From: Psychrobacter sp. 72-O-c
GTDB taxonomy: Bacteria; Pseudomonadota; Gammaproteobacteria; Pseudomonadales; Moraxellaceae
Direction of reading: 5' to 3'
Assembly: GCF_904846605.1 (NCBI RefSeq)
Contig: NZ_CAJHBI010000011.1
Span: 1 to 64,000 of the forward strand
DNA: 64,000 bases
The translations under genes were made by a program, and so were the position numbers. Below the pieces are notes generated by a model. It did no database searches. It saw nothing but the letters and a program-made list of their open reading frames with translations, and was not told the DNA's origin. Numbering within the stretch: position 1 is the stretch's first letter; every line of letters starts with the position of its first letter. Shown here piece after piece: positions 21,858-40,383 of the stretch.

Positions 21858-22235
21858 AACTAGAATTCCTTTAATTATTAAAATGATGTCAGTATTTTGC
21901 CAATGGTTTTTGTAGATAGGTTCTTAAACGTCATCTTGATATGCGCGCGATAGCACTATTTTTCAAGCGTGAAGTTAATATTTAACCAATTGCTAACATT
22001 GCCAAATAAATAGCTTACTTACACCTTACTCCTGACATTTTGAATGTGTTGGTATAGTTGTATAACAAAGCCGTTTTAGGCATAATATGCGTTTATACCA
22101 AATTTTCTGCAGCTAACGTGATGAGCATTTGTCTTAATCGCGTTGTTTGCGCTATTTTTGCTAGTGGCTTGAATATCGCAGCGATGGCAGCATTATTGTA
22201 CTTTGAATTGGGCTGATAACTGGATAACAAATATT
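21858..22235. other. Divergent intergenic region, sohB / aspS
   Basis: About 380 AT-rich bases holding the promoters of two divergent genes. No small gene, RNA or T-box-like structure was recognised. Confidence 0.4.
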
Positions 22236-24186: not shown

Positions 24187-25140
24187 GTGAATCCTTTTCA
24201 TATTTTCAAATACGTGCCACTGTCTGTATTGCAGATGCTGGCACGTTTTGTTGCTTGGATAATGATGCGGCTGCCAAACTTAAGTATTGTTCGCACTATT
24301 AAGATTAATATGGCGCTTATCGATCTGCCACTATCTGACCAGCAAAAACAAACTTTGATTAAAGATATTGTCCGTCATCAGTGTCTTAGCAGTGTCGAGT
24401 CCGTTAAAAGCTGGGCGATGTCTCCTGAATGGAGCATTGCCCAAATTTGCGATGTCCATAACAAAGACATTTTTTTAGAAGGCATATCTAATCCTAACGG
24501 CATGCTTGCCATCGTACCGCACTTAGGTACATGGGAGATGATGAACGCATGGCTCAACCAGTTTGGTTCGCCGACTATTATGTATAAGCCAGTTAAGAGC
24601 AATATCACCAATGAATTCATACTACAAGGGCGTGCGCGCCTTAATGCGACCTTAGTACCGACAGATGGTAGTGGGGTCAAGGCAGTATTCAAAACTCTCA
24701 AACAAGGTGGCTTTAGCATCGTACTACCTGACCATGTCCCTGACCCGTCAGGTGGCGTGGTCGTCCCGTTCTTTGGTGTTGAGACCTTAACCAGTACCTT
24801 AGCCTCCAAATTGGCTAGCAAAACCAAATGCGCTTTAGTCGGTATATCTTGTATCCGCCGTAACGATGGACGCGGTTTTGATATATTTTGCTATAAGCTC
24901 GATGACCCAGCGCTGTATAATCGTGATGCCTCTATTGCTTCCCATGCTCTAAACCAAGCGATGCAGCATATGATCGAAGACAAATGCAGTCATTATATGT
25001 GGGGTTACCGACGCTTTAAACGCTTACCCATTTTGGGCAACCCTTACAGTGCTAATGAAACGATATTGGCAGATTTTATTCGTAAGAATCGCTCTGCGCG
25101 TGATGCGAATCATAAATTCAACCGTGACAATATCGATTAG
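24187..25140 (+). CDS. LpxL/LpxM-family lipid A acyltransferase
   Basis: This 317-residue protein belongs to the HtrB/MsbB (LpxL/LpxM) family, which adds secondary acyl chains to lipid A at the inner membrane. The HX4E catalytic motif is in VPHLGTWEMMN, followed by the substrate-binding VPTDGSGVKAVFKTL and a LPDHVPDPSGGVVVPFFG region typical of the family. An N-terminal hydrophobic helix (LSVLQMLARFVAWIMMRL) serves as membrane anchor. A GTG start codon without a good ribosome binding site was used, because no in-frame ATG precedes the anchor. It is the first gene after aspS (73-base gap), consistent with a lipooligosaccharide locus. Which acyl chain it adds is not known. Confidence 0.88.
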   Translation: MNPFHIFKYVPLSVLQMLARFVAWIMMRLPNLSIVRTIKINMALIDLPLSDQQKQTLIKDIVRHQCLSSVESVKSWAMSPEWSIAQICDVHNKDIFLEGISNPNGMLAIVPHLGTWEMMNAWLNQFGSPTIMYKPVKSNITNEFILQGRARLNATLVPTDGSGVKAVFKTLKQGGFSIVLPDHVPDPSGGVVVPFFGVETLTSTLASKLASKTKCALVGISCIRRNDGRGFDIFCYKLDDPALYNRDASIASHALNQAMQHMIEDKCSHYMWGYRRFKRLPILGNPYSANETILADFIRKNRSARDANHKFNRDNID

Positions 25141-25294: not shown

Positions 25295-26089
25295 ATGGCA
25301 ACTGAAACCTCACTGACTACCCAAACTCAAACAGACACTAATGCCTCTGAACAGCGTTATATTATCTGTATGAAATGGGGTGATAAATATGGTCCTGAAT
25401 ACGTCAACCGCTTGTATAATATGGTCAGTCGCCATTTGACGCTAGACGTCCAGATGATCTGTTTGACTGATGACAGTACCGGCATCGACCCTGCGGTGCA
25501 CTGCTATCCGATACCTGAGCTGAATTTACCATCAGGTTTGCCGGAGCGTGGCTGGAAAAAGCTCACTACTTTTCGCTCTGATTTATACGATCTCAAAGGC
25601 GTAGCACTATTTCTAGATATTGATATCGTTATCGTTGATAATATTGATGCGTTTTTTACCTATGAAGCCGAGCATGATGATAGCGTGATCATCATTCGTG
25701 ACTGGAAAAAACCCTGGCGAATGGTTGGTAACAGCTCTGTTTATCGCTTTAAAGTGGGTATGCATACCTACCCTAACCTACTATCGAACTTTGAGCGTAA
25801 TTTTAAGACTATCAGCCAGCAAGTTCGTCATGAGCAAGCCTACCTATCCAACTACTTACGTGAACACCATCATTTAGAGTATTGGGATAAAACCTGGTGC
25901 GTCAGCTTCAAGTATCAATGCATTGCACCCATTCCTTTTAATTTAGTACGTGCCCCGCATCTGCCTGAGAATGCAAAAATCGTTATTTTTCATGGTGAAA
26001 TTAATCCACCAGAGGCTATCAGTGGTGGTGGCGGTAAATGGTATCGACACGTTAAACCAAGTCCGTGGCTAATGCCGTATTGGCAGTAA
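25295..26089 (+). CDS. Glycosyltransferase-like protein (DXD type), group A
   Basis: This 264-residue protein begins after a Thr-rich tail with YIICMKWGDKYGPEYVNRLY, then carries a DXD motif in LFLDIDIVIVDNIDAFF (near residue 110), which in retaining GT-A enzymes binds nucleotide-sugar and metal. The end is VIFHGEINPPEAISGGGGKWYRH. It is a clear paralogue of the gene at 36174-37010 (IICIKWGTKYG, LFLDLDVIIVD, IIIFPGDLYPTDAISG) and of the remnant at 28453. No membrane segment is seen, so it should act at the cytoplasmic face on a growing sugar chain. The acceptor and donor are unknown. Confidence 0.75.
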   Translation: MATETSLTTQTQTDTNASEQRYIICMKWGDKYGPEYVNRLYNMVSRHLTLDVQMICLTDDSTGIDPAVHCYPIPELNLPSGLPERGWKKLTTFRSDLYDLKGVALFLDIDIVIVDNIDAFFTYEAEHDDSVIIIRDWKKPWRMVGNSSVYRFKVGMHTYPNLLSNFERNFKTISQQVRHEQAYLSNYLREHHHLEYWDKTWCVSFKYQCIAPIPFNLVRAPHLPENAKIVIFHGEINPPEAISGGGGKWYRHVKPSPWLMPYWQ

Positions 26090-26184: not shown

Positions 26185-27120
26185 ATGCAAAAAAATCATC
26201 AAACGAAGCAATCAAAAATAACAGTTAAAGTTAAAGGTCAAAAGCAACTAACGGAAAACTATATGGTGCTAAATTTGCGACTGCCTCCTACCGTTGAGTT
26301 TAATATTGAAAACCAGCGGATCAGTATTAAGGCTTTCGACGCTGCTGAGGCAAAGCAAAACCTACATAAGCAAGCTGTAAACATTATCGCCTCCGGCCCT
26401 TCTGTTGCTAACGTGACTTTCTCAGGGCTGCGCGACATCCCCACTATTTTTGTCAACGGTAGCATCAGTCTCACTAAGCAGCACAACTTTACCAAAGTCG
26501 TCGGTTATGTCATTAGCGATGCCCATTTTATCAACCATCAGCCTGAGATTTTACGACAGCATTATACTGGTCAGCCTTTATATGCGACCTTAGCCGTACT
26601 TGAAGCGATGGCAGTAACACATCCTGAGATCATGCGTACTTATAATCATGCCATGCGTGTATTATATCCAGTAGATAGACTCTGGGGGGTCAAATCGAAT
26701 AAGCTGTTATTTAGTAAGTTAACGTTTAAAAAGAAACTACTCAATAAAAAAAGGCCGTTATCTTACTTTATGGATCATCCAAATTTTATTATTGATGGTA
26801 GCTGCAGGTTTGCTAATATTGGCGTCTCTCTTAACATTACTTATGGGTTTGTAGAGGCGGGAACCGTCGTTTATGTGGCAACGCAATTGGCATTCTCACG
26901 TCATGCTTCTGCCATTCATCTGTATGGTATGGATTTGCTCAACAGCAACCAGCCCCGGTTTTATGAAAACGAGGACAATAGCGCCCCAAGCAAACTTGAT
27001 AAAGCAACCAGCGAACGTATTGTACCGTCATTCAACTTATTGGGTAGAGTCTATAAAGAACACGGCGTCTCTATTATTAATCATTCCCCTATCTCCAAAG
27101 CATTGTTCAATAGTCTTTAG
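26185..27120 (+). CDS. GT42- or DUF115-like sugar-locus protein
   Basis: This 311-residue protein has a nucleotide-binding-like NIIASGPSVANVTF around residues 70-85, then TIFVNGSISL and VVGYVISDAHFIN, and later SAIHLYGMDLLNS. This layout (GSGPS, a short hydrophobic strand, then a Y/L-GxD motif) recalls the GT42 sialyltransferase CstII and the DUF115/MptE-like fold. The first 65 residues are basic and unlike either family. It ends 13 bases inside the convergent gene at 27107. Transfer of a sugar, perhaps an acidic one, to the outer core is inferred. The family call is by motif only and could be wrong in detail. Confidence 0.55.
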   Translation: MQKNHQTKQSKITVKVKGQKQLTENYMVLNLRLPPTVEFNIENQRISIKAFDAAEAKQNLHKQAVNIIASGPSVANVTFSGLRDIPTIFVNGSISLTKQHNFTKVVGYVISDAHFINHQPEILRQHYTGQPLYATLAVLEAMAVTHPEIMRTYNHAMRVLYPVDRLWGVKSNKLLFSKLTFKKKLLNKKRPLSYFMDHPNFIIDGSCRFANIGVSLNITYGFVEAGTVVYVATQLAFSRHASAIHLYGMDLLNSNQPRFYENEDNSAPSKLDKATSERIVPSFNLLGRVYKEHGVSIINHSPISKALFNSL

Positions 27121-28303
27121 TGATATCACTCCCTAAATCTAACACCTGACCAAACTCTAAATATTGCCGAGCAATGCAGTTTGGCAACAGCTGTTGATTC
27201 AATGGCACTTTATAATGATTCAGATTCTCTATTGCTTGACTCATGAGCATTGCCAGTCCATCGATATCGCCTACAGGTATTAAGTTGCTCTCCGGCAGTA
27301 GCTCTCTTGGGCCAAACGGACAATCGGTACTGATCACTGGCACATCTAACGCTTGTGCTTCGACGATGACATAGCCAAACCCTTCAAACTTAGACGTGAG
27401 TACCATCAACGCAGCAGTAGCAATTAATGGATAAGGATTGGCCTGAAACCCTAGAAAATGAACACAGTCACCAATACTAAATTGAATAGACAATTGCTTC
27501 ATTTCATCTTCAAGTTTGCCTTTACCCACTAATACCAATGGCAACTTTCGTTCCGTTTTAGCATACGCTTGCAATAAATCTCGATGACCTTTCATCGTAT
27601 CGAATGATCCCACATGAACTATATAGCCCTTGTCAGTCAAACCAAACTGCTCGATGGATAAAGGCTGTGCAGCGGCTTTTCTAATTTCATCAGCATCACA
27701 TGGATTATAGATCGTCGTCGTTCTATTGAGATTAGTACTATTAGCACTATTACCGACAAGCGCTAGCAAGTCCTGATGTGCACCATCACTGACACAACTA
27801 CAAGGATGGGAACCATATACCATTTTTAGGTGGTCGATGACTTGCTTGGGGGCATCTGATAGCAGATCTTGGAATTGTCTGGATAGTGCCGTATGCAATA
27901 CATTCACAATATTTGATAATTGGCTATAAGCCATAATCCAATTAATTTTATAAATATTAGCTAATATCAGATCTGGCATCCCTATATGACTAAGAATATA
28001 ACAATCTATGCGCTTAGCCACTGCCCTATAAGCGCTAGCTTGCTCAGAATCTGGCGCAAATTCTTGCTTAGAGAACGTCTCATAGTATGGAACTACATGA
28101 TACTGAACGCGAGGATCTAGCGGCATTTCTTGAGTGCCTTCTAGACAAAGCACATGAACGCGATAGTCCATTGCCACGTAAGCACGCGCCAACGTGGTTA
28201 CCATACGTTCAGCGCCGCGACCTTCTAGCGCTTTTAATATCATTAGAATAATAGGTTGGTTCATATCAGTCTTAGTACCGTTTTTTTCATGTCGTTGTTT
28301 CAT
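27107..28303 (-). CDS. GT4-family glycosyltransferase (GT-B), copy 1 of three
   Basis: This 398-residue protein has the GT-B fold of family 4: N-terminal loop MILKALEGRGAERMVTTLA, hinge region YIVHVGSFDTMKGHRDLLQA, and the C-terminal nucleotide-sugar site TSKFEGFGYVIVEAQALDVP with the E-x7-E motif, followed by CPFGPRELLPESNLIPVGD. Two shorter relatives lie at 32673 and 34044, which share CPSGPSELLPKSNLM. The start may instead be the ATG 13 codons inside (MNQPIILMIL). It overlaps the end of the preceding convergent gene by 14 bases. No signal peptide or membrane span is seen. Donor sugar unknown. Confidence 0.85.
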   Translation of the reverse strand: MKQRHEKNGTKTDMNQPIILMILKALEGRGAERMVTTLARAYVAMDYRVHVLCLEGTQEMPLDPRVQYHVVPYYETFSKQEFAPDSEQASAYRAVAKRIDCYILSHIGMPDLILANIYKINWIMAYSQLSNIVNVLHTALSRQFQDLLSDAPKQVIDHLKMVYGSHPCSCVSDGAHQDLLALVGNSANSTNLNRTTTIYNPCDADEIRKAAAQPLSIEQFGLTDKGYIVHVGSFDTMKGHRDLLQAYAKTERKLPLVLVGKGKLEDEMKQLSIQFSIGDCVHFLGFQANPYPLIATAALMVLTSKFEGFGYVIVEAQALDVPVISTDCPFGPRELLPESNLIPVGDIDGLAMLMSQAIENLNHYKVPLNQQLLPNCIARQYLEFGQVLDLGSDITKDY

Positions 28304-28364
28304 ATCCGTATAGTTAGTAGGCTGAGTGTGTTTATCACCTAGAAATCAATCCATTAATTGTCAC

Positions 28365-28439
28365 AGCGAGCTTGCCTTATATGATAGTCTCACTTACTTT
28401 CGTATTGGTACCGATGATATAATAAAGTATATGCGTACT
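28365..28439 (+). pseudogene. Remnant of a FRIGTDD-family gene
   Basis: Reading from 28365 gives 25 codons, SELALYDSLTYFRIGTDD followed by IIKYMRT, which align with GDLPLYDGLTYFRIGTDD and SLRNMRR of the intact gene at 31893-32666. No start codon and no further homology follow; the frame runs into the next remnant. It is a deletion scar. Confidence 0.8.
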
Positions 28440-28452
28440 GTATGTAGCAGCC

Positions 28453-28569
28453 AATGCAAAAATTGTTATCTCTCATGGACAAGCCAATCCACCAAATGAC
28501 ATTGGTGGTGATAAGTAACATCAACTCTATCGTTAAGCCAAGCCTGTGGCTAAAAAATTGCTGGTAATA
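28453..28569 (+). pseudogene. Remnant of a group A glycosyltransferase C-terminus
   Basis: The reading NAKIVISHGQANPPNDIGG followed by stop codons and AKPVAKK aligns with NAKIVIFHGEINPPEAISGG and VKPSPW at the end of the intact gene at 25295-26089; nucleotide similarity is also plain (AATGCAAAAAT, CATGG, AATCCACCA). Two in-frame stops show that it is decayed. It is fused directly to the FRIGTDD remnant. Confidence 0.8.
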
Positions 28570-28586
28570 GGATTATAGGATTAGTC

Positions 28587-29588
28587 ATGAAGTATCATGG
28601 TGAGAAAGAATTAGATATTGTAATCGCATGGGTAGATGGTGACAGTCCGACACTCAAACTAAAAAGAGAGCAGTACAAAGAAACAGAAGACGTGGCTTCA
28701 GATGCCATCACTTCAACGCGCTTCGCAAGTAATAATGAAATATATTACAATATTGCTTCCATAATAAAATACGTGCCTTTCTGTCGTTATATATATATCG
28801 TTACTGATCAACAGCAGCCAAAATTTATAGACGAATTTGTCGAACAAAATATTTGTTCAAAAGACAAAATACGCATTATCGACCACAAAGATATATTTGC
28901 TGGGTATGAGCAGTTTTTGCCTACTTTCAATACCCGATCTATTGAAACCATGCTATGGAATATTCCTGAGCTGTCTGATTATTTTATATACATGAATGAT
29001 GACTTCTTTTTTAATCAGCCTGCAACCATCGAAGATTTTATAAAGGATAAAAAGATCATTATCAATGGCCATTGGAGAAAAAGCTCCATTCTACAGGTCA
29101 AACTTAAGTATCGAGAGTCTCTACAAAAGCTATCAGGGAAAAAAGTTCAACCAAAGCATACCGTTGCCCAAATGCTAAGCGCTAAAATTCTCGGTATGAA
29201 TGAGTTTTTCGAAGTTCATCATTATCCACATATCGTAGATAGAGACATTTTAAAAAATCATCTTTTGAACAATCCTCAGTTATTGAGCAAGCAAATTAAG
29301 TATAAGTTTAGAGATGTTGCTCAGGTAAACCCTATCACCTTAATGAATCATCTAAAGATTCAAAAAGATGAAGCTTGTTTGAAGCCTGAGATGCCAGTAA
29401 ATTATCTTAAGAACAAAAGTAAAGTTGATGATTTTATATTAGGCTTGCAACAAGAACCAATCAAATATGGATGTATACAAAGTTTAGATCTCCTTGATTC
29501 GAACTCATATCAAAAAATTAGTAATGCCATGACGCAAAAATTTTCAGCGTATCTACCGTCATCGCTATTATTAAATACAAGTCGATAG
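28587..29588 (+). CDS. Stealth-family sugar-phosphate transferase
   Basis: This 333-residue protein has the conserved regions of the Stealth family: CR1 DIVIAWVDGDSPT at residue 10, CR2 TRFASNNEIYYNIASI with YIYIVTDQQQPKF, CR3 YFIYMNDDFFFNQP, and a C-terminal CR4-like part. These enzymes transfer hexose-1-phosphate (for example GlcNAc-1-P or Man-1-P) to surface glycans in Neisseria and other bacteria. The presence of all regions suggests an active enzyme. GGATTAGTC precedes the ATG. It is followed by ugd, 44 bases away, so the set may be one transcript. A phosphodiester-linked decoration of the outer core is a reasonable inference. Confidence 0.85.
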   Translation: MKYHGEKELDIVIAWVDGDSPTLKLKREQYKETEDVASDAITSTRFASNNEIYYNIASIIKYVPFCRYIYIVTDQQQPKFIDEFVEQNICSKDKIRIIDHKDIFAGYEQFLPTFNTRSIETMLWNIPELSDYFIYMNDDFFFNQPATIEDFIKDKKIIINGHWRKSSILQVKLKYRESLQKLSGKKVQPKHTVAQMLSAKILGMNEFFEVHHYPHIVDRDILKNHLLNNPQLLSKQIKYKFRDVAQVNPITLMNHLKIQKDEACLKPEMPVNYLKNKSKVDDFILGLQQEPIKYGCIQSLDLLDSNSYQKISNAMTQKFSAYLPSSLLLNTSR

Positions 29589-29632
29589 AACCAAACTCAT
29601 AATAACAAACTGAATATAACTTTGGATCTTTT

Positions 29633-30799
29633 ATGAAAATAACAGTAGCAGGCACAGGCTATGTCGGCTTATCAAACGCCATGTTGCTTGCTCAACACCA
29701 TGAAGTCATTGCCGTTGATATTATCCCAGAAAAGATTGAATTGCTAAATGCAAAAAAATCTCCTATTGAAGATAAGGATATTGAAGACTTCTTGTTGAAT
29801 AAAGAACTTAACTTCACAGCAACGCTAGATGCTAAAGCTGCTTATCAAAACGCTGATTTTGTCATTATTGCCACCCCTACCGATTACGATTCAAAAACCA
29901 ATTATTTCAATACTGACAGCGTAGAAAAAGTTATTGAACAGGTTCTCTCAGTGAATCAGAAAGCGGTAATAATTATAAAATCAACGGTACCAGTCGGATA
30001 TACTGCTGAAGTAAGGCAGCGCTATTCAACAGATAATATCATTTTCTCGCCTGAGTTTCTGCGAGAAGGTAAAGCGTTATATGACAATCTTTATCCTTCG
30101 AGGATTATTGTTGGTGAGCAATCTGAGCGAGCTCAATTATTTGCGGACTTATTACTTGAAGGAGCAATAAAGAAGGATGTTCCTCAGCTTTTTACAGATC
30201 CTACTGAAGCAGAAGCCATTAAACTATTCTCAAATACCTATCTAGCGATGCGGGTAGCGTATTTTAATGAGCTAGACACTTATGCGCAGACATTTGGACT
30301 TCAAACCAAGCAAATCATTGAAGGTGTTGGTTTAGATCCTCGTATCGGTACTCATTATAATAACCCATCATTTGGCTATGGGGGTTACTGCTTACCTAAA
30401 GATACCAAACAACTATTAGCGAATTATGATGAGGTGCCTAGTAATCTTATCAGAGCCATTGTTGATTCTAACAGAACCCGTAAAGACTTTATTGCTGATA
30501 AAATTATTGAAAGAAAACCAAAAATAGTGGGCGTACATCGACTGGTGATGAAAAGCGGTTCAGATAACTTCAGAGCCTCTGCTATTCAAGGCATCATGAA
30601 GCGCGTCAAAGCAAAAGGGATTGAGGTGGTGGTCTATGAACCTGCGTTAAAAGAAGATAAGTTCTTTCATTCACGCGTGATTCAAGATTTAGAAGCATTC
30701 AAAGCGATGAGTGATGTTATCGTAGCCAACCGACTGTCTATTGATATACAGGATGTCTCTCATAAAGTATTTACTCGAGACTTATTTGGAAGCGATTAA
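29633..30799 (+). CDS. ugd: UDP-glucose 6-dehydrogenase
   Basis: This 388-residue enzyme oxidises UDP-glucose twice to UDP-glucuronate with NAD. The N-terminal Rossmann motif is [22 protein letters not shown] and [15 protein letters not shown] are family-typical, and the catalytic Cys sits in [17 protein letters not shown]. The size equals that of E. coli Ugd (388). The TAA stop overlaps the next start by one base (TAATG), so translation with the epimerase is coupled. Together the pair would supply UDP-galacturonate for the surface glycan. The ATG follows GGATCTTTT. Confidence 0.95.
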
Positions 30800-31797
30800 T
30801 GAAGATTTTAGTGACAGGCGCAGCGGGTTTTATTAGTTTTCATTTAATTAAAGCATTGTTACATAAAAACTGCTTCATCGTTGGTATTGACAATATTAAC
30901 GATTACTATGATGTAGAGTTGAAAAATGATCGACTAAAAATACTCAGTGATCACTCGACAGAAGATACTTTTAAATTTATTAAGCTGGACCTCGCTAACC
31001 GTGAGGCAATGTCCAATCTCTTTTCTGAATATGAGTTTGATATTGTTGTTAATCTGGGCGCTCAGGCTGGCGTACGTTATTCTATTGAAAATCCCAACGC
31101 CTATATGGACTCAAACATGGTGGGGTTTTTAAACGTTCTTGAAGGGTGCAGGCATACTGACGTCAAGCATTTAGTATATGCCAGCTCTAGTTCTGTATAC
31201 GGAATGAATGTAAAGCAACCTTTTAGCACTGAAGACTGTGTTGATTTTCCTATTAGCTTATATGCGGCTACTAAAAAATCTAATGAATTGATGGCGCATA
31301 GCTATAGCCATTTATACAACATTCCGACTACAGGCTTGCGCTTTTTTACCGTTTATGGTCCTTATGGTCGACCTGATATGGCTTATTTTTCATTCACTGA
31401 AAAGATACTTAAAGGTGAAACGATTGACGTGTTTAATAATGGTGAGATGCAACGTGACTTTACCTACATTGATGATGTTGTAGAAGGTATCGTCCGTATA
31501 ATGGATAAAACACCCTTACCTCAGCAGTCTTTAGTTACTACAGCGACAGCGCCCTATAAAATTTACAATATCGGTAATAACCAGCCGGTGACTTTACGTC
31601 GTTTCATTACCGCAATTGAGAGTGCTTGCGAGAAAAAGGCTGAAGAAAATTTACTACCTATGCAGCCAGGCGATGTACCGATTACTTATGCTGACATAGA
31701 TGAGCTTGTCAAAGACATTGACTTCAAACCCGTGATAACTATAGAAGACGGTATTACAAAATTTGTGAATTGGTATAGAGAGTATTATTTAGTTTAA
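30799..31797 (+). CDS. UDP-glucuronate 4-epimerase
   Basis: This 332-residue extended SDR has a Rossmann motif that reads TGAAGFISFHL, so the third Gly of the usual GxxGxxG is Ser. The Tyr-Lys pair is present in LYAATKKSNELMAHS, with VYASSSSVYG as the catalytic Ser region, FTVYGPYGRPDMA and the end motif TKFVNWYREYY. The length and the wholly family-like C-terminus fit UDP-glucuronate 4-epimerases that make UDP-galacturonate. Ugd directly upstream supplies the substrate and the genes overlap by one base. The Ser in the cofactor loop is unusual and could change NAD affinity. Confidence 0.88.
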   Translation: MKILVTGAAGFISFHLIKALLHKNCFIVGIDNINDYYDVELKNDRLKILSDHSTEDTFKFIKLDLANREAMSNLFSEYEFDIVVNLGAQAGVRYSIENPNAYMDSNMVGFLNVLEGCRHTDVKHLVYASSSSVYGMNVKQPFSTEDCVDFPISLYAATKKSNELMAHSYSHLYNIPTTGLRFFTVYGPYGRPDMAYFSFTEKILKGETIDVFNNGEMQRDFTYIDDVVEGIVRIMDKTPLPQQSLVTTATAPYKIYNIGNNQPVTLRRFITAIESACEKKAEENLLPMQPGDVPITYADIDELVKDIDFKPVITIEDGITKFVNWYREYYLV

Positions 31798-31892
31798 GTA
31801 CGAAATAAGTATATCTAAATATAAGTCTAATGCCTCCGTACCAGATGTCTCAGCCCTAGTATCACTATATTTGCTCAAAGGATTTAAACGAC

Positions 31893-32666
31893 ATGACCAC
31901 ATCTTCGAAGTGGCAACGAAAAATTATTTTAATGTTTAGAAGTGAAAAAAGACTAAATGCAGGTAAGATTGTTGAAACCTACAACGATAAAAGTTTTGAA
32001 GAGATGAAAGCAACAGTAATAACAGAGTCAATGTGTAATCTTGAGACATTAACTGACAAGCGTAAAACCACAGATTTAGAAGGTCATTTAAATAATTTAA
32101 AACACCAAATGATAGGGCTTTCAGAGCTCTACTTTTATCACAATACATTAATTATATTATTACGTCGTAAATATAAAATAGACGAAACATTTGCCGAACT
32201 TGAAAGGCTATGGGCCGCAGAAAGCGATTATTTATTAGAGTATATCTCAATACGGTGGATCGTCTCTGCTTGCGATACGTTTATTGATTATTCAAAAGAT
32301 ATAAAAAGAGCGGCTATTTTGATGAATGTCGTTACGTTGATGAACACTTTAAGAGCCTATGAGACTAAAAAATTCTTACAGCTACCCGCTGAATTTGAGT
32401 CTATGCCATTGAGTGATGATAAAACAGATATACTCTATCGCGGCGACTTACCTTTGTATGACGGGCTTACTTACTTCCGTATTGGCACTGACGATAGCTT
32501 AAGAAACATGCGAAGACGCTATGAGAAATTCTATAAAACCGACAAACTCGCTACCACTATATTGTTATCCGTATTCGAAAGACTACAAAATAATGGCAGC
32601 GCTTTTGCCACTCTACGACAATTACACAGAGACGATTGGTCTAAATGGTGGATAGATGAAAAGTAA
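31893..32666 (+). CDS. Unknown protein, FRIGTDD family
   Basis: This 257-residue protein is not one I recognise. It is soluble, rich in charged residues and appears mostly helical; no signal peptide or long hydrophobic stretch is seen. Residues about 65-105 (HLNNLKHQMIGLSELYFYHNTLIILL) and 112-165 (YISIRWIVSACDTFIDY, MNVVTLMNTLRAYETK) form regular helices. A strictly kept motif TYFRIGTDDSLRNMRRRYE (FRIGTDD at 195-201) is followed by TTILLSVFERLQ and a tail ending DWSKWW. A shortened relative lies at 37046 and a scrap at 28365. The context is the sugar locus after a UDP-sugar pair, so a role in glycan assembly is inferred, perhaps as a helper. GGATTTAAACGAC precedes the ATG. Confidence 0.7.
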   Translation: MTTSSKWQRKIILMFRSEKRLNAGKIVETYNDKSFEEMKATVITESMCNLETLTDKRKTTDLEGHLNNLKHQMIGLSELYFYHNTLIILLRRKYKIDETFAELERLWAAESDYLLEYISIRWIVSACDTFIDYSKDIKRAAILMNVVTLMNTLRAYETKKFLQLPAEFESMPLSDDKTDILYRGDLPLYDGLTYFRIGTDDSLRNMRRRYEKFYKTDKLATTILLSVFERLQNNGSAFATLRQLHRDDWSKWWIDEK

Positions 32667-32672
32667 TTTTTA

Positions 32673-33785
32673 CTAGGCACTAGCTGCGAATGCAATATAT
32701 TTTTTAGCTATACTAACAGGAAGAAGGGCTTCATCGAAAGGCGAATAAAACTGTTGCGGATTTTTCATTGCCTGCCCCATTTTTTTAGCGATAGCGTCGA
32801 TATCACCTATTTGCATCAAATTACTTTTAGGCAGCAGCTCGCTTGGGCCAGACGGACAGTTGGTACTGATAACAGGCGTACCTATAGCTAAAGCTTCTGG
32901 AATAACTAAAGGACACCCTTCCCAGTCAGAGGTCAATACTTTAAATTGGGCATGCTTAATAAAAGGAAAAGGATTTTCTTGAAAACCTAAAAATACTACT
33001 TTATCTTCTAAATTAAGCGCTATAACTAACTGCTCTATGTCTCTTCGGTACTTACCCTTACCCAAAAGCAGTAAAGGCATAGATTGATCAGTTTGAGCAT
33101 AAGCATTCAACAACACATCATGACGCTTCGCTTTTTTAAAACTGCCAACATGAATAATATAATTTTGGTACTCGGGAATAAATGCATCAGCCAGTTTTTT
33201 AATATGGTCTCTATCGATTGGATTGTGAACAGCAGTTGTTGGTGTAATATCACCAAAACTTTTTATAAAATCTTTTTGAACCCCATCACTGACACATAAA
33301 CAAGGATGCTTTGAGTAAATGTTAGCAAAATTCAATTTACTCTGATTATTATCTATATCATGAAACTTATACAATAGCGACAACGTATTATGAATGGTAT
33401 AGATGATGTTTGGCAGGCGACTGTAACTAAATACACTATCTGAGCGATCAAGGTTTGATAAGATAAGATCAGGTTGGCCAATTTTTTTGGTAATGTAATT
33501 ATCTAGCGCACGGGCGAAAAATTTCTCGCGACGATCTAATTCTGGTATGAGCTTATAGTGCTTAAACTTAAGCATATGATAAATTAGATTCGGATTAAGA
33601 TCGTACTCTACCCGAGGTTTAAACCTCAGAATATGTACCTCATAGCCTAATTCATAGAACCCTTGTCCTAAAGTAAGTACAACGCGCTCCGCACCTCCAC
33701 CTTGGAGACAATTAATAACCAGCAGCACTTTTTTCTGATTTTTTTTGACTAGATCTTTTTTAATTTTGATAATATTATTAAACAT
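32673..33785 (-). CDS. GT4-family glycosyltransferase, copy 2 of three
   Basis: This 370-residue GT-B enzyme is a close relative of the next gene upstream on the same strand (34044-35126): both have INCLQGGGAERVVLTLGQGF near the start, IIHVGSFKKAKRHD in the hinge, SDWEGCPLVIPEALAIGTP as the nucleotide-sugar site (E-x7-E), and CPSGPSELLPKSNLMQIG. It seems intact. It sits tail-to-tail with the FRIGTDD gene, whose stop is six bases away. A decayed glycosyltransferase piece lies between this gene and its twin. The sugar donor is not known. A Lys-rich N-terminus (KIKKDLVKKNQKK) may be peripheral to the membrane. Confidence 0.85.
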   Translation of the reverse strand: MFNNIIKIKKDLVKKNQKKVLLVINCLQGGGAERVVLTLGQGFYELGYEVHILRFKPRVEYDLNPNLIYHMLKFKHYKLIPELDRREKFFARALDNYITKKIGQPDLILSNLDRSDSVFSYSRLPNIIYTIHNTLSLLYKFHDIDNNQSKLNFANIYSKHPCLCVSDGVQKDFIKSFGDITPTTAVHNPIDRDHIKKLADAFIPEYQNYIIHVGSFKKAKRHDVLLNAYAQTDQSMPLLLLGKGKYRRDIEQLVIALNLEDKVVFLGFQENPFPFIKHAQFKVLTSDWEGCPLVIPEALAIGTPVISTNCPSGPSELLPKSNLMQIGDIDAIAKKMGQAMKNPQQFYSPFDEALLPVSIAKKYIAFAASA

Positions 33786-33896
33786 TTCTTAGATATTCCT
33801 AAAAATAAAATTTTTAAGCTTAAAGGATATGTGATTTCATTACTTTATATCGCTTATGGTTTTTTTAGGAAGTTGCCGAACGTCTTTAGTTAGCAG

Positions 33897-34022
33897 TTAT
33901 CCATCTTGTAAAGCTACTTCGTAATACCTATTGAATAGACCATTAAGCTCTTGTATTAGATGCGGCGTAATCCTATCATTAAACCAATGTTCAGATCCTT
34001 TTTTTTCGATTTTTATTTTAGT
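33897..34022 (-). pseudogene. C-terminal remnant of a GT8-like gene
   Basis: On the minus strand the sequence reads IEKKGSEHWFNDRITPHL then IQELNGLFNRYYEVALQDG and a stop at 33897. It aligns with SKEGLEHWFDGEIMPHP, RQDLDKLFDHYYNEALASG of the intact gene at 35211-36077. No upstream part survives. With the two GT4 twins this shows that a two-gene unit (GT8-like plus GT4) was duplicated and one copy of the first gene was then lost. Confidence 0.85.
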
Positions 34023-34043
34023 TGTCCACTATAAATATATGAA

Positions 34044-35126
34044 TCAAGAAAAATTTTGAGCAAATTTTAGGTATTTTTTAGCTATATTGACCGGAAGAAG
34101 TGCTTTATTAAACGGGGCATGAAATTGCTGTGGGTTTTTCATCGCCTGGCGCATCTTTTCAGCGATAGCGTCAATATCACCCATCGGCATCAAATTACTC
34201 TTAGGCAGCAACTCGCTTGGGCCAGATGGACAGTTGGTACTGATAACGGGCGTACCCAGTGCTAGAGCCTCGGCAATGACTAGGGCAAACCCTTCCCAAT
34301 CAGAGGTTAACACTTTAAATTGTGCGTGTTTAATATAGGGAAAAGGATTTTCGAGAAAGCCTAAAAACACTACCTTATCTTCTAGCTTTAGCTCTGTAAC
34401 TAACTGTTTTATCTCACTTTTAAGCTTACCTTGACCTAAAAGTAGCAATGGCATAGATCTATCTGTTTGCGCATAAGCTCTTACCAATACGTCATGACGT
34501 TTCGCGTTTTTAAAACTACCAATATGCATTATGTAATTATGATATTTAGGGATAAATGCGTTAGCCTGCTTTTGAATGTCATCTCTATCAATTGGATTGT
34601 AGATGGCTGTCGTTGGTGTAATATTACCAAAACTCTCCACAAAATCTTTTTTAGCACCTTCGCTTACGCATACGCAAGGATGTTTAGCATATATATTTTT
34701 TAATTTTGATTGCAATATGTCAGCATCACTTATTTTATTGAATTTATACAATAGTGATACTGTATTATGAATGACGTAAATAATATTTGATAGTTTACTG
34801 TTACTAAAAATGCTGTCAGCACGATCGAGATTGGACAAGATCATATCAGGCTGACCAATTTTGCTTAAGATGTATTTATCAACGGCACGCGCAAAAATTT
34901 TATCTCGTCTTTCTGACCCCGGTATAAGTTTATAGGGCTTAAACTTGAGCACATGATAGTTAAGATTAGGATTGAGATCATATTGTACTAGCGACTTAAA
35001 CCTTAAAATATGCACCTCATAGCCCAACTCGTAAAACCCTTGTCCTAAAGTAAGTACAACACGCTCTGCACCACCACCTTGTAGGCAATTAATAGCGAGC
35101 ACCACTATTTGAGCATGTTGTTTCAT
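34044..35126 (-). CDS. GT4-family glycosyltransferase, copy 3 of three
   Basis: This 360-residue GT-B enzyme starts MKQHAQIVVLAINCLQGGGAE and has the same motifs as the copy at 32673: IMHIGSFKNAKRHD, SDWEGFALVIAEALALGTP and CPSGPSELLPKSNLMPMG. The twin at 32673 differs at the sugar-site loop (GCPLVIPEALAIG against GFALVIAEALALG), so the two may use different donors or acceptors. Its stop is followed within 25 bases by the remnant of a GT8-like gene, and the intact GT8-like gene lies upstream. No membrane segment is seen. Confidence 0.85.
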   Translation of the reverse strand: MKQHAQIVVLAINCLQGGGAERVVLTLGQGFYELGYEVHILRFKSLVQYDLNPNLNYHVLKFKPYKLIPGSERRDKIFARAVDKYILSKIGQPDMILSNLDRADSIFSNSKLSNIIYVIHNTVSLLYKFNKISDADILQSKLKNIYAKHPCVCVSEGAKKDFVESFGNITPTTAIYNPIDRDDIQKQANAFIPKYHNYIMHIGSFKNAKRHDVLVRAYAQTDRSMPLLLLGQGKLKSEIKQLVTELKLEDKVVFLGFLENPFPYIKHAQFKVLTSDWEGFALVIAEALALGTPVISTNCPSGPSELLPKSNLMPMGDIDAIAEKMRQAMKNPQQFHAPFNKALLPVNIAKKYLKFAQNFS

Positions 35127-35210
35127 AAATGCTGACCTATAGATAAGCTAAGTACTTGTATAGTTAAACACGAAATACTTATATAAATGATTACTGTTGG
35201 AACAAACAGC

Positions 35211-36077
35211 TTAACGTTTGAACAATCTTGAAAACAACGACTTTGAAGATTGTGGTCGCGTGACTTTATTACCAATGTAATGTTGCTGAGTCTTTTTTGG
35301 AAAACTACCAAAGGAATCAGTGCGATAATTGTCTAACTGATAGCCAGAGGCCAGTGCTTCATTATAATAGTGATCAAACAACTTATCCAAGTCCTGTCTT
35401 GGGTGCGGCATTATCTCACCATCGAACCAGTGCTCAAGCCCTTCCTTACTTACTCTTGCTAGCGAATACTTGTGGCTGAACTGTGTGCCCATATCCGAGT
35501 AATGTAATATTTTAATATCTTCTACTGCCAAGCCTTCACCATCAACACAGTTATAGCTATCTTGGTAAGGTTCGATCAATTTTTTATTTTTCTTAAATAG
35601 CTTCATCATGTCTTTATGGCTGTAAGGATTTTCTTTTAGCTGGTTGAGTGACGGAATAACTTTTTTGGCCTTACTACAGTCCCAAACACAAGTACATAGT
35701 CGAGTCATATCAGCATTCGTTTTGGCCGCTACTATAGACTGTTCATCAATAGAATGATGCCATAACTTTGCTAAATCATCTAAAATAACAACATCGGTAT
35801 CCATGTAAATCGCACGCCCTAAGTAGTTGCAGTATTCAGGGATGGCCCAACGAAACCCTGAAAAGGGGGTTGACCATTTACTAGTATCCCAACCTTCACC
35901 TGTCTCTGGGTTTGAGTACCAATAGCTATTAGGGTCACGTGATAGCTGCATCCATACGATTTCAACTGGCGAGCTGGTATGTTTATGAATACTGTAATCT
36001 AATACCATCATTTGTTCTAGATCACAATTATTGGGATCACAACCTACAAAGACTTTAATAATGTCATTCTGCTTCAT
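35211..36077 (-). CDS. GT8-like glycosyltransferase (DXD type)
   Basis: This 288-residue protein begins IKVFVGCDPNNCDLEQMMVLDYSI and has a DXD motif in GRAIYMDTDVVILDDLAKLW (around residue 96), followed by a DGEG motif and HYSDMGTQ, as in GT8/GT32-type retaining transferases. The C-terminal 60 residues are basic (KKTQQHYIG, SSKSLFSRLFKR), a pattern used for peripheral attachment to the inner membrane. It heads a minus-strand pair with the GT4 gene, 84 bases downstream. A second copy of its last third survives as a remnant at 33897. Donor sugar unknown; galactose or glucose is usual for the family. Confidence 0.8.
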   Translation of the reverse strand: MKQNDIIKVFVGCDPNNCDLEQMMVLDYSIHKHTSSPVEIVWMQLSRDPNSYWYSNPETGEGWDTSKWSTPFSGFRWAIPEYCNYLGRAIYMDTDVVILDDLAKLWHHSIDEQSIVAAKTNADMTRLCTCVWDCSKAKKVIPSLNQLKENPYSHKDMMKLFKKNKKLIEPYQDSYNCVDGEGLAVEDIKILHYSDMGTQFSHKYSLARVSKEGLEHWFDGEIMPHPRQDLDKLFDHYYNEALASGYQLDNYRTDSFGSFPKKTQQHYIGNKVTRPQSSKSLFSRLFKR

Positions 36078-36173
36078 ATTCTCGCCTGCTAGCTAGTCAA
36101 TATCGTAAACTTGGTATTCCTAAAACTTTAAACTAAGAATATCTAGTTGCTACTTATTTATCTATATTTATAA

Positions 36174-37010
36174 CTATTCTTTCCAGTATTTCTCTATCCA
36201 ATCTACTGGCAAGATAAAATGACGCAAGTGCCGTAGTGGTTTTTTAAGGTTTTTAGGTTCTTTTATTCTTTTTAAGTGATCTTTTATATTGTTAGCGGCA
36301 TTTGGGTTATATCGTCCACTAATAGCGTCAGTGGGATATAAATCACCAGGAAATATAATGATGCGCGACCCTTTAGGGATTTTTGGCGTTTTAAAGTAAT
36401 TGAGTGGAAATGGCTGACGACACTTACGTCTAAAGTGCGCAACCCAAGCTTTCGGAAATAGCTTTACCCCGCCCGGTGCATTGCGAGTTACGAAGCGTTG
36501 CTCAAAACGGTATTCATCAGCAATACCCTGTGGATCTGCCTTAAATTTTTCTTGTAGCGATATCAGCGAACCTACTTGAAATCTAAAACAGGAAGTCTGA
36601 CCTAAACGCTCTAATGGATTGCTTGGATTATAAGACAAAACAATATCCTCAGGCTTCCCATATTCAAAGAAAGGGTCAAGACTGTCTACAATAATCACAT
36701 CCAAATCTAGGAATAAAACGTTGCCTGTTAGATCGCCCAGCTTTTCGCCCCAAAGTCGTGATTTCGGCCATTTACCCAGTGTGTTGGTTGGCATTGTAAT
36801 GTCTAAAGGGGGCAGTTCTTGACACTCAATCTCTGAACGTACGTCTGTTTTATCATCGGTAAAGCACACAAAACGAAACGGCGGGGTAATGTTGCGAGAA
36901 ACCATACCGTATAGTTTATTGGCATAATCGGCACCATATTTAGTGCCCCATTTGATACAGATAATTTGTTTGATATTTTTATTATTAGTTGCTTTAGAAT
37001 CTATTGGCAT
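36174..37010 (-). CDS. Glycosyltransferase-like protein (DXD type), group A
   Basis: This 278-residue paralogue of the gene at 25295 reads KQIICIKWGTKYGADYANKLY, FLDLDVIIVDSLDPFFEYG (DXD), NPLERLGQTSCFRF and IIIFPGDLYPTDAISGRYN. The C-terminal 30 residues are Lys/Pro-rich (LKRIKEPKNLKKPLRHLRH) before a Trp-rich end. No membrane segment is seen. It is the first gene of the minus-strand group 37010-32673. The upstream DNA holds a duplicated ilvE-type terminator (37058-37106). Function as an outer-core sugar transferase is inferred. Confidence 0.75.
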   Translation of the reverse strand: MPIDSKATNNKNIKQIICIKWGTKYGADYANKLYGMVSRNITPPFRFVCFTDDKTDVRSEIECQELPPLDITMPTNTLGKWPKSRLWGEKLGDLTGNVLFLDLDVIIVDSLDPFFEYGKPEDIVLSYNPSNPLERLGQTSCFRFQVGSLISLQEKFKADPQGIADEYRFEQRFVTRNAPGGVKLFPKAWVAHFRRKCRQPFPLNYFKTPKIPKGSRIIIFPGDLYPTDAISGRYNPNAANNIKDHLKRIKEPKNLKKPLRHLRHFILPVDWIEKYWKE

Positions 37011-37045
37011 TCGAACTGCTCACTTTAATTATGTAGGTAAATAAC

Positions 37046-37558
37046 GTGACAAGTATATTAGCACAAAAAAAGACTGAACGATTATGTTCAGCCTCTTTAG
37101 GCTTTTCAGGAGTTATAGGAATCCGAAACCGAGTATTTATTGAATCACCTATCTTTCTATCTTTGCGTTGGATTATCTCTGGATGTGATGCATTCATAGA
37201 TAATGCTATTTGTACAACCGGTTCTGCAATATTCATGAATGCAACAATACCTATTAATACTTTAAAAACCTACGAAACTCAAGAACTGCTATATCAAGCA
37301 AATGAGTTTAAACTTAACGAACAAAAAGTCGACGCACTGTATAGCAAGCATTTACCAATATATGAAGAACTTACCTACTTTAGAATTGGTACGGATGACA
37401 CCTTAACTAATATGCGCATAAGACATGAAAGCTTTACCGACAGTGATGAGCTTGCAACAACAGCTTTGTTATATGTTTTTAATAGACTTCAGAATATTAA
37501 AAGTACGTTTAATACCATAAAAAAATTACATACTGATGAGAGATCATATTGGTGGTGA
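37046..37558 (+). pseudogene. N-terminally truncated FRIGTDD-family gene
   Basis: From about residue 34 (SPIFLSLRWIISGCDAFID) this 170-codon frame aligns with the C-terminal half of the intact gene at 31893, including TYFRIGTDDTLTNMRIRHE and the end LHTDERSYWW. The first 110-120 residues of the family are absent. The apparent N-terminus (MTSILAQKKTERLCSASLGF) is merely the translation of the duplicated terminator sequence at 37058-37106, so this start is not likely to be real. The fragment may be untranslated, or may make a shortened protein from a later start. Confidence 0.75.
37058..37106. repeat. Duplicated terminator, copy 1
   Basis: About 46 of 49 positions equal 39389-39437, the ilvE terminator. 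It contains the hairpin GACTGAACGATTATGTTCAG with a poly-A on the left, meaning a terminator for minus-strand transcription. It lies at the breakpoint of the truncated FRIGTDD gene. Confidence 0.85.
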
Positions 37559-37700
37559 CTAATTTTTCACTTCATTAAGTATAATATTTATTCTAGACTC
37601 TGAACACACCTTCCCTATATCACTATTGTAGAATATAAATGATTAATAACTTTGAGCTATGTATATACAACACTCAAAACCAATAGGGTATGTCGCATAA
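37559..37700. other. Very AT-rich spacer
   Basis: About 140 bases between two remnants. No gene or RNA is recognised. Confidence 0.4.
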
Positions 37701-38039
37701 TTATTTAACTGGAACAATATTTTAAAAAATAATTCAGCTACTATATATTTTGTGCGAGCTTGGATCAATGAACAATTTTCTACAAATAAAAATTTAGTAG
37801 ATCAAGATAGCTTTGAGCAAGCTATAATCAAGAGAGAAAATATTGTCAAACTTAAATCCCTACCAACAGAATACATTAAAATTTTTGATAATAACTATTA
37901 TGGTGAAATATATATTGAACACTATCAAGCTAGCTGCAGCTAAACTGAGCTTAAGAAACAACGTATTAGACTAAGAAATCGTCTTGTCTTGGGTATAGTT
38001 GTATTTATAGCTGCCGCTATTTATATCAAAATCAGATGA
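37701..38039 (+). pseudogene. Remnant of an unknown gene with C-terminal membrane helix
   Basis: The frame LFNWNNILKNNSATIYFVRAW ... NNYYGEIYIEHYQASCS is open for 80 codons, meets TAA at 37941-37943, and continues in the same frame for another 31 codons, TELKKQRIRLRNRLVLGIVVF then IAAAIYIKIR, to TGA at 38037. The second part is a basic stretch and a clear membrane helix, so the TAA is probably a nonsense mutation in what was one protein. There is no ATG or ribosome binding site at the front (only GTG at 37752), so the 5' part has been lost too. I do not recognise the family. Confidence 0.6.
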
Positions 38040-38078
38040 TTTAAATTATCATTAGGTAGTAGCTATACACTGCATACC

Positions 38079-39062
38079 CTACTTACCTAGATTTAAATTA
38101 ATGAATTGGGCCTTCCAATTATTTATTTGAGTCCATGGAATATTCAGGGAAGGTGCCCAATCTGTGTTTATGAGTTCAATCAACTCTTCAATCGATACTC
38201 GATTTACTACAGGTAAATTAAAATCATTCTTCATTTCAACTGCACGATTATCAATTCCTATTATAATGGCTCTTTTTGATAATTGTAGCGCTCGTATACC
38301 AGCGTGTAGTCTTGTTCCTATATAATCTATATCATTATTTACCAAAATTTCATTAAATGCTATTAAAGTATTGGAAACAAGTTTGATTTGATTATTATGA
38401 CAGCTACTGTCTAAATTTAGCTCTTCAAAATATGCTAAATCTTTTGATCCCTGAGGCCAAAAGTAAATAGTCTCATAGTTTTTAGTCAGACAGTTAATCA
38501 GTGAAATATCTAAATCATAATTTCGACGGTAATCTGTAAGTGTGAAGACTACTGAACTGGCTTTTGTAGTTGGAATACTTGATAGCTTTTCACTTGTTAA
38601 ACTCCATAGTGTTGGGCACCCTGTATTAATAACATTTTTTATCCCACATCTTTTAAGTTTATTCTCAGTATAACTATCCCTTACTGAGTGCAGAATATCT
38701 TTTCGAAGCGCATTTTTATAAAATACCTTAGCTTTCCACTCAGTTTCATCTGTATAATTGTTCCAGCCTACCCCAAATAAAATCGCTGGTTGCATTCTAA
38801 ATGCATCAATAAACCGCAGCGACCATTGATTTTTTCTGGCTTTTATTTTCCAGTAACTTCTTAACAAGTTAGTACCACATACAAATGCTAAATTATTTTC
38901 CCATGCTTTCTTCAAAGTAGACTCAGCTAATGCATAATGTGTTGGATAATGAACAAACTGTTCATACTCAAAAATACTTTTTAGTTCAGCCGTTGCAGAT
39001 TCCATTATTATAGTATCTCCTATATTTAAGGAGCCTACTGAAGTATCATAAATTGTAATCAT
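38079..39062 (-). CDS. Polysaccharide pyruvyl transferase family protein
   Basis: This 327-residue protein fits the polysaccharide pyruvyl transferase family (WcaK/CsaB type), which adds pyruvate ketals to surface sugars from phosphoenolpyruvate. Seen are the N-terminal IYDTSVGSLNIGDTIIM (usually N-x-GD), FVCGTNLLRSYW, AILFGVGWNNYTDE, VRDSYTENKLKRCGI, and a C-terminal YIGTRLHAGIRALQLSKRAIIIG, where R-x-HAG is the best-kept motif. The gene is very AT-rich, more so than its neighbours, which suggests transfer. It is single, between two terminators. Some family members act on other acceptors, so the product is uncertain. Confidence 0.78.
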   Translation of the reverse strand: MITIYDTSVGSLNIGDTIIMESATAELKSIFEYEQFVHYPTHYALAESTLKKAWENNLAFVCGTNLLRSYWKIKARKNQWSLRFIDAFRMQPAILFGVGWNNYTDETEWKAKVFYKNALRKDILHSVRDSYTENKLKRCGIKNVINTGCPTLWSLTSEKLSSIPTTKASSVVFTLTDYRRNYDLDISLINCLTKNYETIYFWPQGSKDLAYFEELNLDSSCHNNQIKLVSNTLIAFNEILVNNDIDYIGTRLHAGIRALQLSKRAIIIGIDNRAVEMKNDFNLPVVNRVSIEELIELINTDWAPSLNIPWTQINNWKAQFINLNLGK

Positions 39063-39453: not shown

Positions 39454-40383
39454 TCAATCAATAAAGCTTAACCAATCCATATATTCTTCATTACGGCCAT
39501 GAACCACATCAAAATATAAGGTTTGTAATTTTTCAGTAATTTCACCGCGGCCACCATTACCAATTTTGCGGTCATCATATTCGCGAATAGGTGTGACTTC
39601 AGCAGCAGTACCCGTCATAAAGATTTCGTCGGCTAGGTAAAACTCATCACGAGTAATACGACGCTCAGTGACTTTGATACCTAAATCAGCGGCAAACTGG
39701 ATGATAGTTCGACGAGTAATACCGTCAAGGGCCCCGCCTGCTAAGTCTGGTGTATGTAACTCGCCATTCTTCACTAGGAATAAGTTTTCACCTGAGCCTT
39801 GGCACACATAGCCTTGTGAATCCATCATGATTGCTTCGTCGTAGCCATTACGAGTCACTTCTCGATTGGCCATTATAGAGACCGGATAGTTGCTCGAGGC
39901 TTTAGCCTTGCACATAGTGACGTTAGGCAAATGATGGGTATATGAGGAAGTTTTTACTCGGATACCGTTTTGGATACCTTCCTCACCAAGATAAGCACCC
40001 CAATGCCAGGCCGCAACCATCGCATTGACACTATTATCATGAGCGGATAGGCCAAGCTTTTCTGCGCCAATCCATATCAGCGGACGAATATAAGCTTCAG
40101 ATAAATTATTCTGCTTAACAACGTCCTTGTGTGCCTGCTCAAGGGTGGCGGCATCAAAAGGCACCTCCATCTGAAAAATAAAGGCGGAACCCAACAAGCG
40201 CTCAACATGATCTGTCAGGCGAAAAATCGCGGTGCGCTTATCAGCGGTTTGATAAGCACGCACGCCTTCAAATACCGCAATGCCATAATGTAAGCTGTGC
40301 GTCAGTACGTGAACTTTGGCATCTGGCTGATTAATCATCGTGCCATTCATCCAAAGCTTGCCGTCTTGTGTTGCCATGTTCAT
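39454..40383 (-). CDS. ilvE: Branched-chain amino acid aminotransferase
   Basis: This 309-residue fold-type IV PLP enzyme moves the amino group between glutamate and the keto acids of leucine, isoleucine and valine. Family motifs include the N-terminal LWMNGTMIN, VHVLTHSLHYGIAVFEGVRAY, the PLP lysine region TMCKAKASSNYPVSIMA, GYDEAIMMDSQGYVCQGSGENLF and EIFMTGTAAEVTPI. The length equals that of E. coli IlvE (309). AAGGAATATCGA precedes the first ATG, which was chosen over an internal ATG two codons later. It is the right border of the surface-sugar locus and follows glnE on the same strand, an order also seen in Pseudomonas. Confidence 0.96.
   Translation of the reverse strand: MNMATQDGKLWMNGTMINQPDAKVHVLTHSLHYGIAVFEGVRAYQTADKRTAIFRLTDHVERLLGSAFIFQMEVPFDAATLEQAHKDVVKQNNLSEAYIRPLIWIGAEKLGLSAHDNSVNAMVAAWHWGAYLGEEGIQNGIRVKTSSYTHHLPNVTMCKAKASSNYPVSIMANREVTRNGYDEAIMMDSQGYVCQGSGENLFLVKNGELHTPDLAGGALDGITRRTIIQFAADLGIKVTERRITRDEFYLADEIFMTGTAAEVTPIREYDDRKIGNGGRGEITEKLQTLYFDVVHGRNEEYMDWLSFID

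Follow-up and report, generated by a model that had tools for sequence, protein, structure and literature searches.

What does a protein without a recognised family do among the transferase genes of a surface-glycan locus, and why does its motif FRIGTDD occur there three times? The question arose from a stretch of 64,000 nucleotides of Psychrobacter sp. 72-O-c (contig NZ_CAJHBI010000011.1, positions 1 to 64,000; hereafter the window), in which an intact gene encodes a 257-residue protein whose family is given here the working name FRI. The gene lies among transferase genes between genes that we take to be aspS and ilvE, and the locus is in this respect an outer-core locus. We propose, with a probability of about one in two, that FRI is an auxiliary domain, predicted to be helical, which acts together with a glycan transferase and probably holds either that enzyme or its acceptor. 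Another version of the locus left the additional copies behind as relics, debris of locus replacement.

Neighbours and fusion partners of FRI

Genomic surroundings were examined for part of the FRI matches (the window and loci L033–L079, L103–L126 and L139–L220), neighbours being identified with profiles constructed from neighbour clusters, a sample of which was checked against Pfam. Exclusion of short or duplicate loci (L080–L102, L127–L138), of identical genes and of matches under 80 bits left 128 non-redundant loci. The nearest partner was a GT25 gene within 400 bp in 42 of them, a GT4 gene in 24, a gene of the c10 cluster (PF03407-type transferases) in 14 and an adjacent GT2_4 gene in 9; GT2_4 was fused to the C-terminus of FRI in 13 and an N-terminal fusion was present in 6, 18 had no partner, and in 2 the gene was at a contig edge. 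A neighbour or fused part of glycan-transferase kind was found in 108 of the 126 loci not at an edge, and a recognised glycan transferase lay within 400 bp or was fused in 105, the other three (L178, L202 and L203) having a fused part that Pfam did not confirm as such. When the count was restricted to loci flanked by 1.4 kb or more in either direction, a transferase-like gene within 1.5 kb (the ICMKW and Stealth types described below included) or a fusion recognised by the GT2_4 profile was present in 88 of 105. A same-strand GT25 gene overlapped FRI or lay within 30 bp of it in 38 of the 128 loci, and the order ICMKW-FRI-GT25-GT4 recurred in Acinetobacter-like loci and in several small f155 genomes.

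Fusions were found at both ends of the FRI domain. It is preceded by PS_pyruv_trans in a Paracoccus protein (L104) and by Sulfotransfer_2 in two Sulfitobacter proteins (L105, L106), in all cases above the Pfam cut-off. Glyco_tranf_2_4 follows it in L143 (the gene also listed as L155), L144, L157, L161, L163, L169 and L172 with scores above the cut-off, and in L166 with one below it, so that 7 of the 8 scanned non-redundant C-terminal fusions were confirmed; those of L156, L158, L159, L160 and L170 lay outside the Pfam scan. In L202, L203 and L204 (same gene as L178) about 250–320 extra N-terminal residues are fused to FRI. Pfam gave Sulfotransfer_3 at E 0.045 for this part of L203, Sulfotransfer_2 at E 0.41 behind an AppA helix-bundle match (0.0053) for that of L204, and nothing for that of L202; judged by eye and without Pfam confirmation, the three are possibly divergent sulfotransferases. 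As its fusion partners come from different enzyme classes and sit at either terminus, FRI does not represent the lacking half of any of these enzymes. The original prediction of a module that travels with glycosyltransferases was borne out by the survey and by the fusions to glycan enzymes. The constant linkage to glycan loci that it had looked for proved strong well beyond the window, protein fusions included, but not constant, 18 of the 126 loci having no partner within 400 bp. Fusions and tight GT25 pairing point to a candidate partner of FRI, and an unannotated domain that recurs beside or within several classes of glycan transferases would either supply a catalytic step so far missing or give general help in the building of surface glycans.

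None of the databases searched provided an accepted relative of FRI, confirming that the family is not a recognised one. Against Pfam-A, P0001 reached at best 14.4 bits, under the curated cut-off of 26.3, and tallies over 30 and 37 members gave a best E of 0.0054, in single members only. NCBIfam gave no match for P0001 and P0002 and a best E of 0.0026, in one member, over 37; the best E in PHROGs among 3 proteins was 0.03, not significant; PADLOC gave nothing at 0.01 among 3 proteins; and matches to PDB sequences were weak and limited to one or a few members. Comparison with transferase profiles revealed no similarity to known glycosyltransferases. The families that FRI usually adjoins or is fused to are GT25, GT4, GT2_4, PF03407 transferases, Sulfotransfer_2 and PS_pyruv_trans, and it matched none of these above chance. 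Weak matches were judged to be chance when they were under the cut-off, where one exists, and limited to one or a few members; TerB_C, YhdB, DUF7179, DUF4181, DUF188, the BK channel, DBL1_03 (E 0.0051), kojibiose hydrolase (E 0.0026, one member) and seryl-tRNA(Sec) kinase were discarded as relatives in this way. The string FRIGTDD was not found in the collection of papers searched, subscription papers being outside that scope, and nothing recognisable as FRI appeared in titles and abstract openings of the literature on Psychrobacter outer-core loci, on fusions of GT25, sulfotransferases and unknown domains, or on the lipooligosaccharide genes of Moraxella.

Distribution was sampled within Pseudomonadota. 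FRI was present in 52 of 105 Psychrobacter genomes and, in a sample of the taxonomic family, in 68 of 299 genomes and 4 of 16 genera (the same 52 Psychrobacter genomes and 16 others). Broader samples gave 15/390 genomes for the order, 4/369 for the class and 11/398 for the phylum; all of these contain the window genome, and the order and phylum samples contain further congeners. Hosts comprise Psychrobacter, other Moraxellaceae, other gammaproteobacteria and Rhodobacterales, with 37 of 159 genomes in the Rhodobacteraceae-like family f262. In the order of genome G778, 18 of 83 genomes matched, two of these by short pieces only; nine complete-looking single-contig genomes of 1.0–1.2 Mb were among the matches, one by a short piece. 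Rhodobacterales plasmids also carry copies (10 records, the named ones in Sulfitobacter and Paracoccus). No sign of phage or viral carriage was obtained: there were 0 matches among 50,697 phage records, and scanning viral contigs four times, three of them with sensitivity to close relatives only, likewise gave none. A separate observation concerns L213, L214 and L186–L195, where FRI is packed against GT25 in single-contig genomes of about 1.0–1.5 Mb, suggesting that reduced genomes retain the gene.

The ratio of nonsynonymous to synonymous substitution rates (dN/dS) between close congeners was about 0.06 (L033–L039), 0.05 (L034–L036) and 0.07 (L055–L056); a value of 0.38 for L047–L048 rests on very few changes, and between the window gene and its nearest relatives synonymous sites are close to saturation. 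Between close congeners, the FRI gene is under purifying selection. These data bear on the proposal that FRI only accompanies or regulates these loci and does not itself contribute to the building of glycans. Its absence from 53 of the 105 Psychrobacter genomes fits such a role, as does the position of some Rhodobacteraceae-like copies, several partnerless f262 genes among them, between what we take to be prfC and a DEAD-box helicase gene. By contrast, fusion to three kinds of glycan enzymes, tight GT25 packing in distant lineages and the purifying selection seen in two congener pairs (dN/dS about 0.05–0.06) all speak against it, making such a role unlikely.

Conserved core and proposed mode of action

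Conservation was assessed in 37 diverse rows and in an alignment of 78 rows, the latter after exclusion of 5 short pieces and 4 identical rows. In the 37 rows, with the window protein as reference, R91 and W122 were invariant and R92, W107, R121, T129, D132, K154, E157 and R209 were each conserved in at least 90%, defining a core pattern RR...RW...T..D...K..E. The window protein carries R91, R92, R121, W122, T129, D132, K154 and E157, the core having been derived from the same sequences. In the 78-row alignment, mean majority frequency at FRIGTDD was 0.82 versus 0.58 over all columns in 66 gammaproteobacterial rows, and 0.51 versus 0.56 in the 12 remaining rows; residues 119–132 (the RWIVSACDTFID region) also reached 0.82 in gammaproteobacteria. 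Because FRIGTDD is kept only in gammaproteobacterial rows, it marks that branch and not the whole family. The strong constraint that had been read from its three occurrences was not supported, the extra copies being decayed relics and the motif being conserved in gammaproteobacteria only. A further block, D201-L203-N205-M206-R207-R209, is mostly lost in the 12 non-gammaproteobacterial rows, whereas the RR/RW/T..D/E core is retained.

Two AlphaFold models (window and L033–L039, 9 rows) were helical at low confidence, with mean predicted local distance difference test (pLDDT) scores of 46.4 and 53.3, too low for a comparison with the GT-A and GT-B folds of known glycosyltransferases. Structure searches with the second gave noise-level matches (Foldseek best E 2.1, VIA-align best Z 4.3) and were not used. 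The DxxxD pattern at D128/D132 might have indicated a helical site like that of isoprenoid synthases, a reading that was rejected because D128 is not kept outside gammaproteobacteria and no profile supports it.

On the reading favoured here, the intact gene would encode a soluble domain, probably composed of helices only, that assists glycan assembly. In the window genome this domain would take part in building the outer core of the lipooligosaccharide, most likely beside a glycosyltransferase or a glycan-decorating transferase and presumably in physical partnership with it, and the conserved core (R91/R92, R121-W122, T129, D132, K154, E157) would hold the acceptor or the partner. The sequences would fit either a shared service, in which FRI holds a common acceptor or partner, or a second enzyme. 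Outside gammaproteobacteria the D-L-NMR-R block is weakened but the RR/RW/T..D/E core is kept, a difference that speaks slightly for binding over catalysis.

A second enzyme is a possible, though less favoured, explanation. FRI would then itself be a transferase, of a fold unlike known glycan enzymes, adding or priming one residue on which the fused or neighbouring enzyme also acts. Invariance of R91 and W122 and conservation of R92, R121, T129, D132, K154, E157 and R209 in at least 90% of the 37 rows are what would be expected of it, 18 of 126 loci have FRI without a partner, and fusions of two catalytic domains are common in glycan pathways. However, no transferase profile resembles FRI, the likeliest catalytic candidate (the D201–R209 block) is the one mostly lost in the 12 non-gammaproteobacterial rows, and each partner recognised by Pfam is a complete enzyme class by itself. 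The wider proposal, that FRI would represent a new all-helical class of glycan-active enzymes found in alpha- and gammaproteobacteria beside or within glycosyltransferases, sulfotransferases and pyruvyl transferases, is doubtful.

Several observations weigh against the auxiliary-domain reading. The near-invariant charged core would suit a catalytic site equally well and, together with the partnerless genes, keeps catalysis among the possible functions. Fourteen of the 18 non-edge loci without a glycan partner within 400 bp belong to the Rhodobacteraceae-like f262. The L148 GT2_4 protein was searched in 11 of the 14 genomes concerned and in two controls with an adjacent partner, both of which matched, one being the query's own genome; among the 11, relatives were found in G1528 (41%) and G1405 (35%), seven gave weaker matches, and none was detected at 1e-10 in G1415 and G1458. 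Such sparseness indicates that FRI can exist without that partner. Of the four partnerless loci outside f262, L052, L109 and L110 include aspS, ICMKW and MptE genes; in L142, sugar-nucleotide genes, named by neighbour cluster, occur within four genes. Gaps were measured from the longest open frames, that is from the first possible start, so that overlaps are upper limits. Finally, there is no GT25 gene beside the window FRI gene, and the one GT25 match of the window genome is weak (E 8.8e-7) and on another contig.

Origin of the additional copies

With the intact protein as query, exactly three sites were returned from the window genome (3.2 Mb in 81 contigs), at E = 1.3e-171, 9.4e-39 and 1.9e-4. 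They are the intact gene, the 5'-truncated copy and the scrap of the original prediction, all of which translate as claimed. The scrap was also scored by the family profile, at 9.0e-6 in a genome search and 6.4e-7 in a search of stop-to-stop segments, and with these values none of the three sites is a chance match. Their extents needed correction. For the truncated copy (37046–37558) family homology is confined to 37157–37555, the first 37 codons from the GTG at 37046 not being family sequence, and the scrap, given as 25 codons at 28365–28439, extends over about 35 (28356–28460).

The truncated copy is more similar to FRI of L042 (58.8%) and L070 (56.6%), both of the c10 locus type, than to the intact gene of its own locus (51%). 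In a tree of 93 rows it was nearest by path to the same two, and the smallest well-supported group holding it (15 rows) also includes the window's own type, so that the tree alone leaves its origin undecided. The deciding evidence is the gene that follows it, a decayed c10 gene with a frame change and an internal stop that is 51% identical over 100 amino acids to the c10 gene of L046 (E 9.65e-29); a c10 member matches PF03407 above the cut-off. The site was formerly that of an FRI–c10 pair. Next to the scrap, at a distance of 53 bp, is a GT4 gene with orthologues (67–76%) directly upstream of FRI in c10-type loci (L041, L043, L070–L073); in loci of the window's type the orthologues are upstream of Stealth. 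This position identifies the place of the scrap as the older FRI site, now succeeded by the Stealth-ugd-epimerase-FRI block. From the scrap continues a broken piece of an ICMKW-type gene (58.8% over 34 amino acids to the gene of L049, E 3.9e-7 in a 284-base subject), and a broken GT8-type piece lies between two GT4 genes (49% over 57 amino acids, E 1.6e-12), an intact GT8 gene being present in the same locus.

More than one FRI match was obtained in 7 of the 52 matching Psychrobacter genomes, some of these being one gene in two pieces, as in G074, where contig ends interrupt the gene, and G101, where the N-terminus is separate. Of the 48 Psychrobacter locus records scanned, among which some loci are represented more than once, 3 have true extra pieces: those of the window, L063 and L064. 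Recent duplication was rejected as the origin of the three copies, given the identities cited above (51% versus 58.8%) and the decayed c10 gene. The 3' copy and the scrap are leftovers of c10-type versions of the locus, in which FRI is followed by a PF03407-type transferase, and the present block replaced one such version. That either is functional, or the locus has more than one working FRI protein, is highly improbable: an open frame of 170 codons does begin at 37046 and retains the majority of the residues conserved in that half, but the copy has no N-terminal half and precedes a broken gene, the scrap runs after about 35 codons into another, and extra pieces occur in just the 3 records mentioned. 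Repeated motifs in such loci can thus be debris of recombination.

The window locus and related outer-core loci

In A. baumannii, published accounts place the outer-core genes of the lipooligosaccharide between aspS and ilvE (PMC4172580; PMC10327509), borders also given in PMC3628348. The window locus resembles this outer-core locus (OCL) in its chromosomal site, its variable transferase genes and its types made by recombination (PMC4172580, PMC10327509). As far as these accounts extend, no OCL protein was matched to FRI, Orf1, Orf2 and GtrOC6, which have no Pfam family (PMC4172580), lying outside the comparison. Orf1 has 294 residues, and the first protein that it matches beyond Acinetobacter is a putative formyl transferase of an archaeon (PMC4172580), a description that in itself makes kinship with FRI unlikely. 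Gene 2898 of A. baumannii ATCC 17978, a predicted glycosyl hydrolase that is by inference ghy/Orf1, is reported to be needed for a complete outer core (PMC10936431); like FRI, it belongs to an outer-core locus and its role is unclear. Published models assign KdoT and GnaT, of the same pathway, to the GT-B enzymes (PMC12856342), the lipooligosaccharide core of P. arcticus is known chemically (PMC4515632), and ten A. variabilis genomes have seven outer-core locus types unlike those of A. baumannii (PMC12904642). Such loci of Acinetobacter and its relatives serve for typing.

Features of the window locus are collected in Table 1. The names aspS, ilvE, lipid A acyltransferase-like, ugd-like and epimerase are putative, given from the sequences.

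Table 1. Genes and gene remnants of the outer-core locus in the window
Feature	Coordinates	Strand	Remarks
aspS (putative)	22203..24113	+	locus border
Lipid A acyltransferase-like gene (putative)	24187..25140	+	
ICMKW-type putative transferase	25295..26089	+	without Pfam family
MptE-like gene	26185..27120	+	PF01973, below cut-off
GT4 glycosyltransferase	27107..28303	-	orthologues adjoin FRI in c10-type loci
FRI scrap	28356..28460	+	about 35 codons, at ancestral FRI site
Broken ICMKW-type gene	28450..28545	+	C-terminal piece, continuing from scrap
Stealth-type sugar-phosphate transferase	28587..29588	+	Stealth_CR2
UDP-sugar dehydrogenase, ugd-like (putative)	29633..30799	+	
NAD-dependent sugar epimerase (putative)	30799..31797	+	96 bp upstream of FRI, same strand
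Intact FRI-family gene	31893..32666	+	257 aa; family profile covers residues 6–253
GT4 glycosyltransferase	32673..33785	-	convergent, 7 bp past FRI
Broken GT8-type gene	33858..34013	-	C-terminal piece, between two GT4 genes
GT4 glycosyltransferase	34044..35126	-	by profile built here
GT8 glycosyltransferase	35211..36077	-	
Second ICMKW-type putative transferase	36174..37010	-	
FRI relic	37046..37558	+	C-terminal half only; homology 37157–37555, about residues 118–253
Decayed c10 gene	37654..38033	+	PF03407-type transferase, C-terminal half, after FRI relic
Polysaccharide pyruvyl transferase	38079..39062	-	
ilvE (putative)	39454..40383	-	other locus border

Three further features of the locus were observed. 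The pyruvyl transferase gene adjoins the FRI relic and is of the enzyme class that is fused to FRI in Paracoccus. The two ICMKW genes (ICMKWGDKYG...) form a second family without a Pfam match, giving only E-values above 0.1; they contain a stretch, LDxDxVI.D, that was judged by eye to be GT-A-like, and in the first neighbour survey their relatives flanked FRI in 58 loci. Finally, the G+C content of the outer-core locus (25200–39100) is 37.0%, compared with 42.5% and 43.2% in its flanks, and it is 31% in the region of the 3' relic.

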